Positions 17,323 to 19,791 of a stretch of DNA of 51,018 nucleotides are shown piece after piece. Origin of the DNA: Nitrospinaceae bacterium UBA3496 (GTDB lineage Bacteria; UBA8248); the NCBI GenBank assembly GCA_002377645.1, contig DFQF01000091.1, positions 11,779 to 62,796 on the forward strand, written 5' to 3'. Under the pieces are notes generated by a model, which searched no databases, was not told where the DNA came from, and was given only the letters and a program-made list of their open reading frames with translations. The position numbers were made by a program, and so were the translations under genes. The first letter of the stretch is position 1, and each line of letters opens with the position of its first letter.

Positions 17323-18366
17323 ATGATAGAGCCTATTGAATTTAAAGAAAATTTTTGGGAATCTATTGATTTTTATCATGAAAAAGGTTGGACAGACGGA
17401 CTGCCTGTAATTCCTCCAACCAAAGAAATGATAGAAAGTTTCCTTGATTCGGGTGGAATTACAGAAGGACAGATAGTTTTCGAAGTACCTGAAAGAAAAA
17501 GAAGTGTTAGTGCTGAAAAGATAGCAATCAATGCAATTTTGGCAGGTTGCCTACCAATTTATATGCCTGTAATTATCTCGGCACTCGAGGCAATGGCAGA
17601 CCCAGAATATAATATTCATTCAAGTGCATCTAGTACAGGTGGAGCAGCTCCTTTTATTCTTATAAACGGTCCAATCCGTTCTGAAATATCCCTTAATTCA
17701 GGAACAAATTTTTACGGACCTGGTACTAGAGCTAATGCATCAATTGGTAGAGCAATAAGATTGATTTTAATTAACTGTTTAGGCGCAAAGCCTGGTCTTA
17801 TGGATCGTTCTACACAAGGGAATCCCGGAAAATACAGTTTAACTTTTGGAGAAAATGAAGAACTGAGCCCATGGGAGCCACTAAGTATGGAATTAGGCTT
17901 TAAAAAAGAAGAAAGCACGGTAACACTACTAGCAACAGAAGGACCTCACAATATTCAAAACCATTATGGGCAGTCAAAGGGAATTTTAGATACTGCTTGT
18001 CATACCATGTCTTCTCTTGGGAGTATGAGTGAAGGACAAAGTTTCTTCGTTTTTTCTCCTGAACATGCAAAAATTATTAGTGAAGAATATAAGACTAAAC
18101 AAGAAATAAAAGAGTATATTTTTGAGAATGCTAAAATATCTGAGGATATTCTTATAGAATCTGGAAAAATTAATAATAACGGATGGGCTGATGAAAAAGG
18201 AAATGTGAGACATGCTCTTACTCCAGATGATATCTTTATTGTTGTTGCTGGTGGAGAAGCGGGCGGACATTCATCTTGGGTCCCCTCATGGAGCAGAAGA
18301 AGAAATGGAATAACAGTTACCAAAAAAATACTATCTTCAAAATCTCGACTTTTACAGACGTACTAG
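17323..18366 (+). CDS. Conserved protein paired with the UGSC selenoprotein
   Basis: A 347-residue protein without an assignable enzymatic family. Visible conserved-looking elements are 'GWTDGLPVIPPT' near residue 22, 'AEKIAINAILAGCLPIYMPV' (one Cys) around residues 65-85, a Ser/Thr/Gly-rich 'SSASSTGGAAPFILINGPI', and 'VVAGGEAGGHSSWVPSW' near the C-terminus. No signal peptide or clear membrane anchor is seen. The downstream UGSC gene starts 9 bases after its stop, and the intervening AGGAG overlaps this gene's end, so the two are tightly coupled. A joint redox function is inference from that arrangement only. Confidence 0.7.
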   Translation: MIEPIEFKENFWESIDFYHEKGWTDGLPVIPPTKEMIESFLDSGGITEGQIVFEVPERKRSVSAEKIAINAILAGCLPIYMPVIISALEAMADPEYNIHSSASSTGGAAPFILINGPIRSEISLNSGTNFYGPGTRANASIGRAIRLILINCLGAKPGLMDRSTQGNPGKYSLTFGENEELSPWEPLSMELGFKKEESTVTLLATEGPHNIQNHYGQSKGILDTACHTMSSLGSMSEGQSFFVFSPEHAKIISEEYKTKQEIKEYIFENAKISEDILIESGKINNNGWADEKGNVRHALTPDDIFIVVAGGEAGGHSSWVPSWSRRRNGITVTKKILSSKSRLLQTY

Positions 18367-18375
18367 GAGAAAAAA

Positions 18376-18909
18376 ATGAATGGAAATAAATTTCCTATAT
18401 TTGATCCAACAGTAGAAATGAATACAAATGAAGAGAACCCCGCAATAAGAAAATCCGATTTAAACAAAAAAAAATGCGGCCTTCTTTGGAATTCAAAAAT
18501 AGGCGGCGATAAACTCATGCATTTTGTCCTTGCGGAACTCGAAAAAAAGGGCATAACACCATCTGAAATAGTAGAATTAAAAAAAGAATACGATACACGT
18601 CCCGCTAAGAGAAAGATGTATGAAGAGATGGCAGAAAAATGTGATTTTGTAATCACAGCTGTCGGTGATTGAGGATCTTGCTCATCGTGCAGTGTGCACG
18701 ATGGAATAGAGCTAGAAAAACTCGGAATACCAACAGCTGTGATATGTACTGAACCATTTCGGAATACTGCGGAAGTAGTTGCAAAAATAAGGGGAATGGA
18801 AAACTATCCTATAGCATACATTCCACATCCTGTAGGGAGTTTAAATGAAGATCAACTAAGAGAACGTGCAAAAGAAGTCACTCCCAAAATTCTTAAAATA
18901 CTCACTTAA
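18376..18909 (+). CDS. UGSC-family selenoprotein (in-frame UGA read as selenocysteine)
   Basis: Reading TGA at 18670-18672 as selenocysteine joins two frames into one 177-residue protein with Sec at position 99, in the motif Sec-Gly-Ser-Cys followed by SCS. The frame is continuous on both sides of the UGA, and the downstream part ('EKLGIPTAVICTEPF', 'HPVGSL') is plainly the same domain. A 9-bp hairpin begins 10 bases after the UGA. The UGSC family is known from marine metagenomic selenoproteome surveys; its reaction is unknown, but Sec and Cys two residues apart suggest a thiol redox centre. ATG at 18376 has AGGAG upstream. Without Sec insertion the product stops at 98 residues. Confidence 0.9.
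18670..18704 (+). promoter_or_regulatory. Bacterial SECIS-like element
   Basis: The UGA codon (18670-18672) is followed after ten bases by CATCGTGCA-GTG-TGCACGATG (18683-18703), a perfect 9-bp stem, or 8 bp with the loop AGTGT. The apical loop contains the GU expected for SelB recognition and lies about 20 bases from the UGA, within the usual bacterial distance. The hairpin is inside the coding sequence, as required in bacteria. Confidence 0.85.
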
Positions 18910-18915
18910 ACCAAA

Positions 18916-19791
18916 TTATTTTCCAGAGCTTTTTTCAAAAAATTCTCTTATCGCTGCTTGATCATCATTACCAAAACCAAGTGCCGAGGTAGATTTAAAA
19001 ACTTGCCATGCAAGTGCAGCAAAATTAGTAGGCATGTTCACATGAGACGCCATCTCAGCCACCAAACCTAAATCCTTTTTCATAAGATCAACTTTAAACG
19101 TTGGAGTATAGTCTTTATTTGCAAGGGCATCCCCTTTCAAATCAAAAACTCTGGGATGAGAACTAGTTTTAAAGTAATCAATCATTTCCACTGGATCCAA
19201 GCCAGATTTCATTCCTAAAACTAATCCTTCAGAAATAGCACACATAAATATAGAAAATATTTGATTCGCTACCAGTTTCATCTTCAAGGCAGTACCATTT
19301 TCTCCAAAATAATGTACAGTTTTTCCAAGCGTTTCTAAAACATCCTTATTTTTTTCAAAAGCGTTTTTATCACCCCCAACCATAACGTGAAGATCCCCAG
19401 TAATAGCCTGTGGCTCACTTCCCCCTACTGGAGTATCTAGAAAAATGACTCCTCTTTTTTTAGCTTCCTCAGCTACTTCGCAACTTCCTTCAGGTGAGAT
19501 TGTAGAAAAATCAAAACAAACCGTCCCTTCAGATGCAGTCGATAATGCCCCACTACTTGAAAGATATGTCTCTTTGACATGTTCTGTTCTGGGAACAGAA
19601 CTACAAATCACATCAACATTTACAGCTGCTTCTCCTGCACTAGAAAAAACTTCGACACCAAAACTCGAGGCATTGTCTCTAGCTTTTTGAGCTGGATCAA
19701 ATCCATTAACAGTATAACCAGCATCCACTAAATTTCGTGCCATAGCTCTACCCATAGTTCCTAAACCTAAATATGCAATCTTTTTAGACAT
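18916..19791 (-). CDS. NAD(P)-dependent beta-hydroxyacid dehydrogenase (3-hydroxyisobutyrate dehydrogenase family)
   Basis: 291 residues with the N-terminal Rossmann motif 'GLGTMGRAMARNLVDAGY', the family substrate signature 'FLDTPVGGSEPQAITGDL', and the helical domain with the catalytic Lys region ('ALKMKLVANQ'). Members oxidise 3-hydroxyisobutyrate, tartronate semialdehyde or related beta-hydroxyacids; the substrate here is not decided. It is downstream of the ABC transporter operon on the same strand (122-base gap) and converges with the selenoprotein gene across 6 bases. Confidence 0.85.
   Translation of the reverse strand: MSKKIAYLGLGTMGRAMARNLVDAGYTVNGFDPAQKARDNASSFGVEVFSSAGEAAVNVDVICSSVPRTEHVKETYLSSSGALSTASEGTVCFDFSTISPEGSCEVAEEAKKRGVIFLDTPVGGSEPQAITGDLHVMVGGDKNAFEKNKDVLETLGKTVHYFGENGTALKMKLVANQIFSIFMCAISEGLVLGMKSGLDPVEMIDYFKTSSHPRVFDLKGDALANKDYTPTFKVDLMKKDLGLVAEMASHVNMPTNFAALAWQVFKSTSALGFGNDDQAAIREFFEKSSGK

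Follow-up and report, generated by a model that had tools for sequence, protein, structure and literature searches.

A UGSC selenoprotein gene from a Nitrospinaceae genome, its usual partner gene, and a likely remote kinship with the selenocysteine domain of GrdB/PrdB

What do UGSC selenoproteins do, and with which other protein do they act? A gene at 18376..18909 raises this question in a 51,018-nucleotide stretch of DNA from Nitrospinaceae bacterium UBA3496 (GenBank assembly GCA_002377645.1, contig DFQF01000091.1, positions 11,779 to 62,796 of the forward strand; the whole stretch is called the window here). In the Global Ocean Sampling data, as surveyed in 2008, UGSC ranked among the largest selenoprotein families, with 255 sequences (PMC2398784), and a 2026 review calls the functions of nearly all such predicted selenoproteins largely uncharacterized (PMC13188914). 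Our analysis adds a usual partner gene, a resemblance to GrdB/PrdB, and a predicted fold; the partner lying upstream and the GrdB/PrdB likeness go beyond the initial annotation of this DNA. We tentatively read the pair as a two-subunit reductase dependent on selenocysteine (Sec).

The initial annotation had described an in-frame TGA at codon 99 within a Sec-Gly-Ser-Cys motif, followed by 78 further codons, and this was confirmed by the coordinates and the translation. The frame (+ strand) opens with ATG at 18376, reaches the TGA at 18670..18672, and closes with TAA at 18907-18909. Translated with Sec at the UGA, its 177 codons give a protein in which Sec99 is followed by Gly-Ser-Cys102-Ser-Ser-Cys105 (motif GD-U-GSCSSC). 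The family assignment also held, as the joined 177 residues scored 178.6 bits against PF24696 (cut-off 25) and 152.7 bits against NF041046 (cut-off 125). PF24696 further matched the two halves separately, with 52.8 and 85.0 bits. Judged from its sequence, 18376-18909 is thus a genuine member of the known UGSC selenoprotein family, whose function is unexplained. The protein agrees with the UGSC-containing protein of the 2008 survey in its whole-length match, its Sec-Gly-Ser-Cys, its occurrence in marine uncultured bacteria, and its Cys homologues, and the window gene itself shows no difference.

Gene calling splits such a gene, as had been predicted: the listing of open reading frames (ORFs) gives pieces of 98 and 71 residues, and most database entries are likewise short. 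The database matches were 98-113 residues long in 17 of 25 cases, and six of the seven short matches examined stop exactly at ...VGD, just before the UGA. In one database protein (P0010), Trp takes the position of Sec (GDWGSC); the source pipeline probably rendered a UGA as Trp. In the window, the UGSC gene alone combines an ORF of at least 85 codons ending in TGA with at least 50 open in-frame codons thereafter. A lineage that reads TGA as Trp was considered and rejected; TGA is the ordinary stop of 3 of the 42 non-overlapping ORFs of at least 150 codons, and only one long open frame continues beyond a TGA.

The initial annotation had made its selenoprotein claim depend on sel genes and on conservation beyond the UGA, and both were found. 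The genome encodes selA (567.6 bits), selB (401.9 bits), and selD (337.9 bits), each above its cut-off, and a tRNA-Sec whose 76.2 bits exceed the gathering score (47) and which ARAGORN also reported as tRNA-SeC with anticodon tca; a tRNA scan beside selB found nothing. The selD gene (G000 contig C31:29303-30262, L062) has its own in-frame TGA and probably encodes a selenoprotein. UGSC was present in all 18 genomes of the phylum, at 90 places, with a single in-frame TGA at 89 of them; the remaining place is a fragment downstream of the Sec site that does not cover it. Comparison with three relatives showed better conservation past the UGA (58/78, 48/78, and 40/77 identical residues) than ahead of it (54/95, 33/94, and 28/92) in every case.

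Cys homologues, which had also been anticipated, were found in actinobacteria, where GDCGSC stands in place of GDUGSC. Cultured species such as Pimelobacter simplex, Amycolatopsis sacchari, and Saccharopolyspora flava carry such forms. Among 113 collected sequences, the comparison covered the distinct ones, 96 with Sec and 7 with Cys. A Cys at the third place after Sec/Cys was present in 96/96 Sec and 7/7 Cys sequences, with a search pattern that favoured such a Cys. The third motif Cys was found in 91 of the 96 Sec forms and in one of the 7 Cys forms; because its codon sits inside the hairpin stem described below, its conservation may partly serve the RNA.

The reported 9-bp hairpin, beginning 10 bases past the TGA and bearing a GU-containing loop, was recovered as a selenocysteine insertion sequence (SECIS)-like element at 18683..18703 (+ strand; arms 18683-18691 and 18695-18703, loop GTG). 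Its 43-nt fold reached −16.2 kcal/mol (z −2.32), and 8 of 200 dinucleotide shuffles were equally good. The perfect 9-bp stem is peculiar to the window copy. Comparison showed that relatives share a 5-bp core (18686-18690 with 18696-18700, + strand) and a loop that fits [A/U]GU[G/A/U]U, here AGTGT at 18691-18695. All five core pairs were intact in 95 of the 96 Sec forms and in none of the 7 Cys forms. The top core pair was C-G in 90 Sec forms, G-C in five, and U-A in one, and another core pair was G-C in 95 and A-U in one. The A-U case is the second UGSC copy of the window's own genome (L008), where the pair is restored by two synonymous changes; in L080, a pair is likewise restored by two synonymous changes (Cys TGT and Val GTA). 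In the five G-C cases, Trp replaces the third motif Cys and the partner base is altered too. The loop Ser codon, seven after Sec, was AGT in all 82 instances, although AGT makes up only 9.6% of the 2658 Ser codons counted in UGSC and partner genes on the scanned contigs.

Other measures were blunt or told against the hairpin. Four of the seven Cys forms retain four of the five core pairs, so the Sec-Cys contrast is small. Measured against synonymous shuffles, folding energy could not tell the two kinds of form apart (mean z −0.72 for Sec and −0.69 for Cys), and in an eight-pair count p 0.05 was reached by just 11 of the 96 Sec forms. Rfam gave no match for 18300-19000 at E up to 1. The case for the hairpin is carried by the compensatory changes and the AGT codon, which speak for selection on the RNA. 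Related sequences, in these counts and in those of linkage below, are not independent events. Taken with the genes found, the comparisons support well that UGA99 is decoded as Sec, with the probable help of the hairpin and of SelA, SelB, SelD, and tRNA-Sec. Gene callers and most database entries end at the UGA, and the source genome is a draft (completeness 91.6%, estimated contamination 5.5%), which would suit a true stop arising from a pseudogene, a sequencing error, or programmed truncation, with a product of 98 residues only. We regard this as hardly credible, given the same TGA at nearly every place in the 18 genomes, the better conserved sequence past it, the Cys at its position in homologues, the Sec machinery, and the compensatory changes.

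Immediately upstream lies a gene of 347 codons at 17323..18366 (+ strand), a member of the GWTDGLPVIPPT... family and probably the substrate-binding subunit. It ends 9 bases before the UGSC gene. Because the ribosome-binding-site-like AGGAG of the UGSC gene (18365..18369, + strand) overlaps the TAG stop of this partner (18364-18366), the two genes are likely carried on one transcript. No useful match to the partner was found among Pfam or NCBIfam models. The family has 4309 database relatives, and 28 aligned members share many invariant residues.

The linkage is recurrent. In the 18 genomes of the phylum, at least 67 of the 90 UGSC places had a partner relative on the same strand and no more than 350 bp away, counted from 150 listed partner matches out of a larger number. 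We also scanned GTDB genomes and retained the best 80 of 315 loci (Nitrospinota, Chloroflexota/SAR202, Rokubacteria, Acidobacteriota, Bacillota, Deltaproteobacteria, and Actinobacteria); 11 of these are titled Nitrospinota, the lineage itself or near it, and at least one comes from a genome also among the 18. In these 80 contigs, 63 of 82 UGSC places had a partner relative within the same distance and on the same strand; at 13 others it lay within 2 kb, at three elsewhere, and three had no partner in the locus. UGSC and partner form a single polypeptide in three genomes (L160, L161, and L162; motif GDUGSCTSWLVRN), that is, in three of the four loci examined, the fourth (L163) showing no UGSC motif in a scripted search. 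Because of this recurrent linkage and the three fusions, we infer from sequence comparison that UGSC is the smaller and the partner the larger subunit of a two-subunit enzyme. The 2008 survey, in the passage concerned, mentions a fusion of UGSC to a domain named 'Unknown_1' (PMC2398784), which is perhaps the partner family described here.

Partners outnumber UGSC genes, and tandem arrays occur: four paralogues lie near one UGSC gene at L144:7418-11541 and three at L152:2124-5242. A conserved third gene was sought by clustering 722 neighbours within 6 kb of the 80 loci, and none of the 30 clusters listed extended beyond four of the seven groups; the widest, found at 13 loci and by eye an ABC ATPase, is generic. 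The predicted model of the partner had a predicted local distance difference test (pLDDT) score of 81.7, with low confidence at the invariant stretches 24-26, 103-106, and 159-169. To judge from the model, these stretches may be loops that become ordered in a complex.

The likeness to GrdB/PrdB (PF07355, TIGR01917, TIGR01918, and TIGR04483), which are the Sec proteins of the glycine/sarcosine/betaine and D-proline reductases, emerged from profile comparisons. At E up to 0.01, TIGR01917 (GrdB) matched 35 of 76 UGSC proteins and TIGR04483 (PrdB) matched 26. In a reciprocal test on 6215 translated frames, including 124 UGSC and 25 GrdB, the four top non-UGSC matches of the UGSC profile were all GrdB (E 0.018-0.077), and the next match stood at 0.92. 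Conversely, 25 of the 31 non-GrdB matches of a GrdB profile were UGSC, as were all of the first 40 non-GrdB matches, those listed, of a combined GrdB and PrdB profile. Sec heads a similar stretch in both families, UGTGTRSGAALAKELEREDIPTVLIT in the GrdB-like protein of the same genome and UGSCSSCSVHDGIELEKLGIPTAVIC in UGSC. The 2026 review, in the passage concerned, gives the GrdB motif as UxxCxxC (PMC13188914), with the spacing seen in UGSC. Neither Cys of this motif is present after Sec in those GrdB-like proteins of the lineage that were examined. UGSC also differs from GrdB/PrdB in being a stand-alone domain of ~177 rather than ~430 residues, in having a neighbour that is not GrdE-like, and in occurring also in genomes in which GrdA was not found. 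The open-access literature passages that name both UGSC and GrdB draw no connection between them. Stand-alone PrdB-like selenoproteins of ~160-220 residues (UPMC and UPLC), without the full-length GrdB part, occur in the same phylum (e.g. L053 and L054).

Several results count against such a kinship. All UGSC scores to GrdB/PrdB models were far under the cut-offs: the window protein matched TIGR01917 at E 1.4e-5 with 24.2 bits (cut-off 602.2) and TIGR01918 with 19 bits (cut-off 65.45), so that the cut-offs of GrdB-type models were not reached. The geranylgeranyl-reductase model TIGR02032, which looks unrelated, also matched 34 of the 76 UGSC proteins, and part of the GrdB-model signal can therefore be generic. 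Alignment of UGSC to GrdB/PrdB by hhalign placed Sec on Sec with a probability of 10-14% only (controls 0.1-0.2%), and a search of PDB found no GrdB or PrdB structure for comparison. On balance, UGSC is likely, though not proven, to be remotely akin to the Sec domain of GrdB/PrdB.

We tentatively propose that UGSC and its partner constitute a two-subunit Sec-dependent reductase, with a Sec-Gly-Ser-Cys subunit and a substrate-holding partner, in the catabolism of small acids or acyl-CoA (CoA, coenzyme A), with a putative reaction and substrate. The partner would hold a small organic acid, either free or as the CoA ester, and the Sec selenolate would attack this substrate, whose bond would be reductively cleaved or reduced. 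Cys102 would next resolve the selenium adduct, and the selenenylsulfide so formed would be reset by a thiol reductant, for instance thioredoxin. UGSC would work in the manner of a GrdB/PrdB-type reductase module, but together with a different substrate subunit. A bolder version, possible though doubtful, is that the pair adds a third type to the Sec-dependent substrate reductases, next to the glycine and proline types: a GrdB/PrdB-type Sec domain freed from the Grd complex would have joined a new substrate subunit that multiplied (up to four in tandem near one UGSC gene), one module thereby serving several substrates in marine bacterial catabolism.

Some observations are awkward for the proposed reductase. 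The partner bears no convincing likeness to GrdE or to a protein of known structure, and a pyruvoyl chemistry like that of GrdE/PrdA therefore cannot be taken for granted. When PDB was searched by sequence with UGSC, the partner, or GrdB, no convincing match came up. Two identities were tried for the partner and rejected: a pyruvoyl subunit of the GrdE/PrdA kind (no reciprocal matches, hhalign 0.16%) and the N-terminal part of GrdB (hhalign 0.19%). One paralogue outside the compared set (L147:1888-2403) reads UGSS and has no Cys three after Sec, so Cys102 can be missing. In addition, the catabolic neighbours described below were picked by eye, without a chance control, and differ between loci.

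Two other readings of the protein have to be weighed. In its AlphaFold model (pLDDT 93.7), UGSC is a doubly wound alpha/beta domain in which strands 33-38, 64-69, 91-97, 120-125, and 147-149 alternate five times with helices, and Sec99 lies between the third strand (91-97) and helix 100-115, at the helix start. The 2008 survey, in the passage concerned, states that UGSC is 'likely Trx-like', i.e. thioredoxin-like (PMC2398784). As in thioredoxin-like UxxC selenoproteins, Sec and Cys stand three apart at the start of a helix, and CGSC is kept in the Cys forms. The structural matches listed for UGSC were widespread doubly wound folds, none of them an informative relative; no thioredoxin was among them, which does not exclude one. 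The order of elements in thioredoxin is unlike the alternating strands and helices of the UGSC model, where Sec follows the third strand; the predicted order thus argues against a thioredoxin-like protein, as does the profile kinship, which points to GrdB/PrdB. General redoxins also seldom have a dedicated partner gene, which makes the partner atypical of one. We therefore consider a thioredoxin-like protein unlikely. Equally improbable, in our judgement, is a non-reductive enzyme (e.g. a lyase, hydratase, or transferase) whose substrates would be acids or CoA esters, with Sec/Cys as nucleophile or metal ligand and a partner remotely akin to class I fumarases. The ten best Foldseek rows for the partner were all class I fumarate hydratases, and the neighbouring genes include enoyl-CoA hydratase, acyl-CoA dehydrogenase, and CoA-transferase III, but the likeness to class I fumarases is weak (best row 7xky_A, E 2.0e-3, prob 0.75).

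Knowledge of the partner means that the UGSC protein can be made as part of a pair; expression alone, without the partner, may be one reason why nothing could be assayed. The GrdB/PrdB likeness points to activities worth assaying, and cultured actinobacteria, with their Cys forms, offer a selenium-free route to function. An enigmatic family has thus gained a usual partner and a plausible kinship, and its function is now testable.

The genome also has GrdA, GrdE-type, and GrdB-type genes, which sit on another contig and not with UGSC. At G000 contig C26:20979-23811 (L043, L157), GrdA (with an in-frame TGA), a PF09338 GrdE-type gene, and a GrdB-like gene (with a TGA; UGTGTRSG) follow one another on the same strand. 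An uncultured marine lineage thus has a set resembling glycine/sarcosine/betaine reductase, and true relatives of these reductases occur in the cell that also has UGSC. GrdA was found in 13 of the 18 genomes, all drafts, compared with 18 of 18 for UGSC. UGSC appears to be independent of the glycine reductase complex, because three draft genomes that have it (G003, G010, and G012) yielded neither GrdA nor PF09338.

Catabolic genes adjoin several UGSC loci. In one relative (G008), five of its eight UGSC loci, the five that the neighbour test covered, stand beside acyl-CoA dehydrogenase, enoyl-CoA hydratase, CoA-transferase III, or luciferase-like oxidoreductase genes. IclR-type regulators lie near three Cys-type UGSC-partner pairs. 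The second UGSC copy of the source genome (L038:5456-5977, G000 contig C11) belongs to another motif class (GGUGSCTLCSVHDT) and comes after a partner gene of its own; downstream of it lie genes for enoyl-CoA hydratase and acyl-CoA dehydrogenase.
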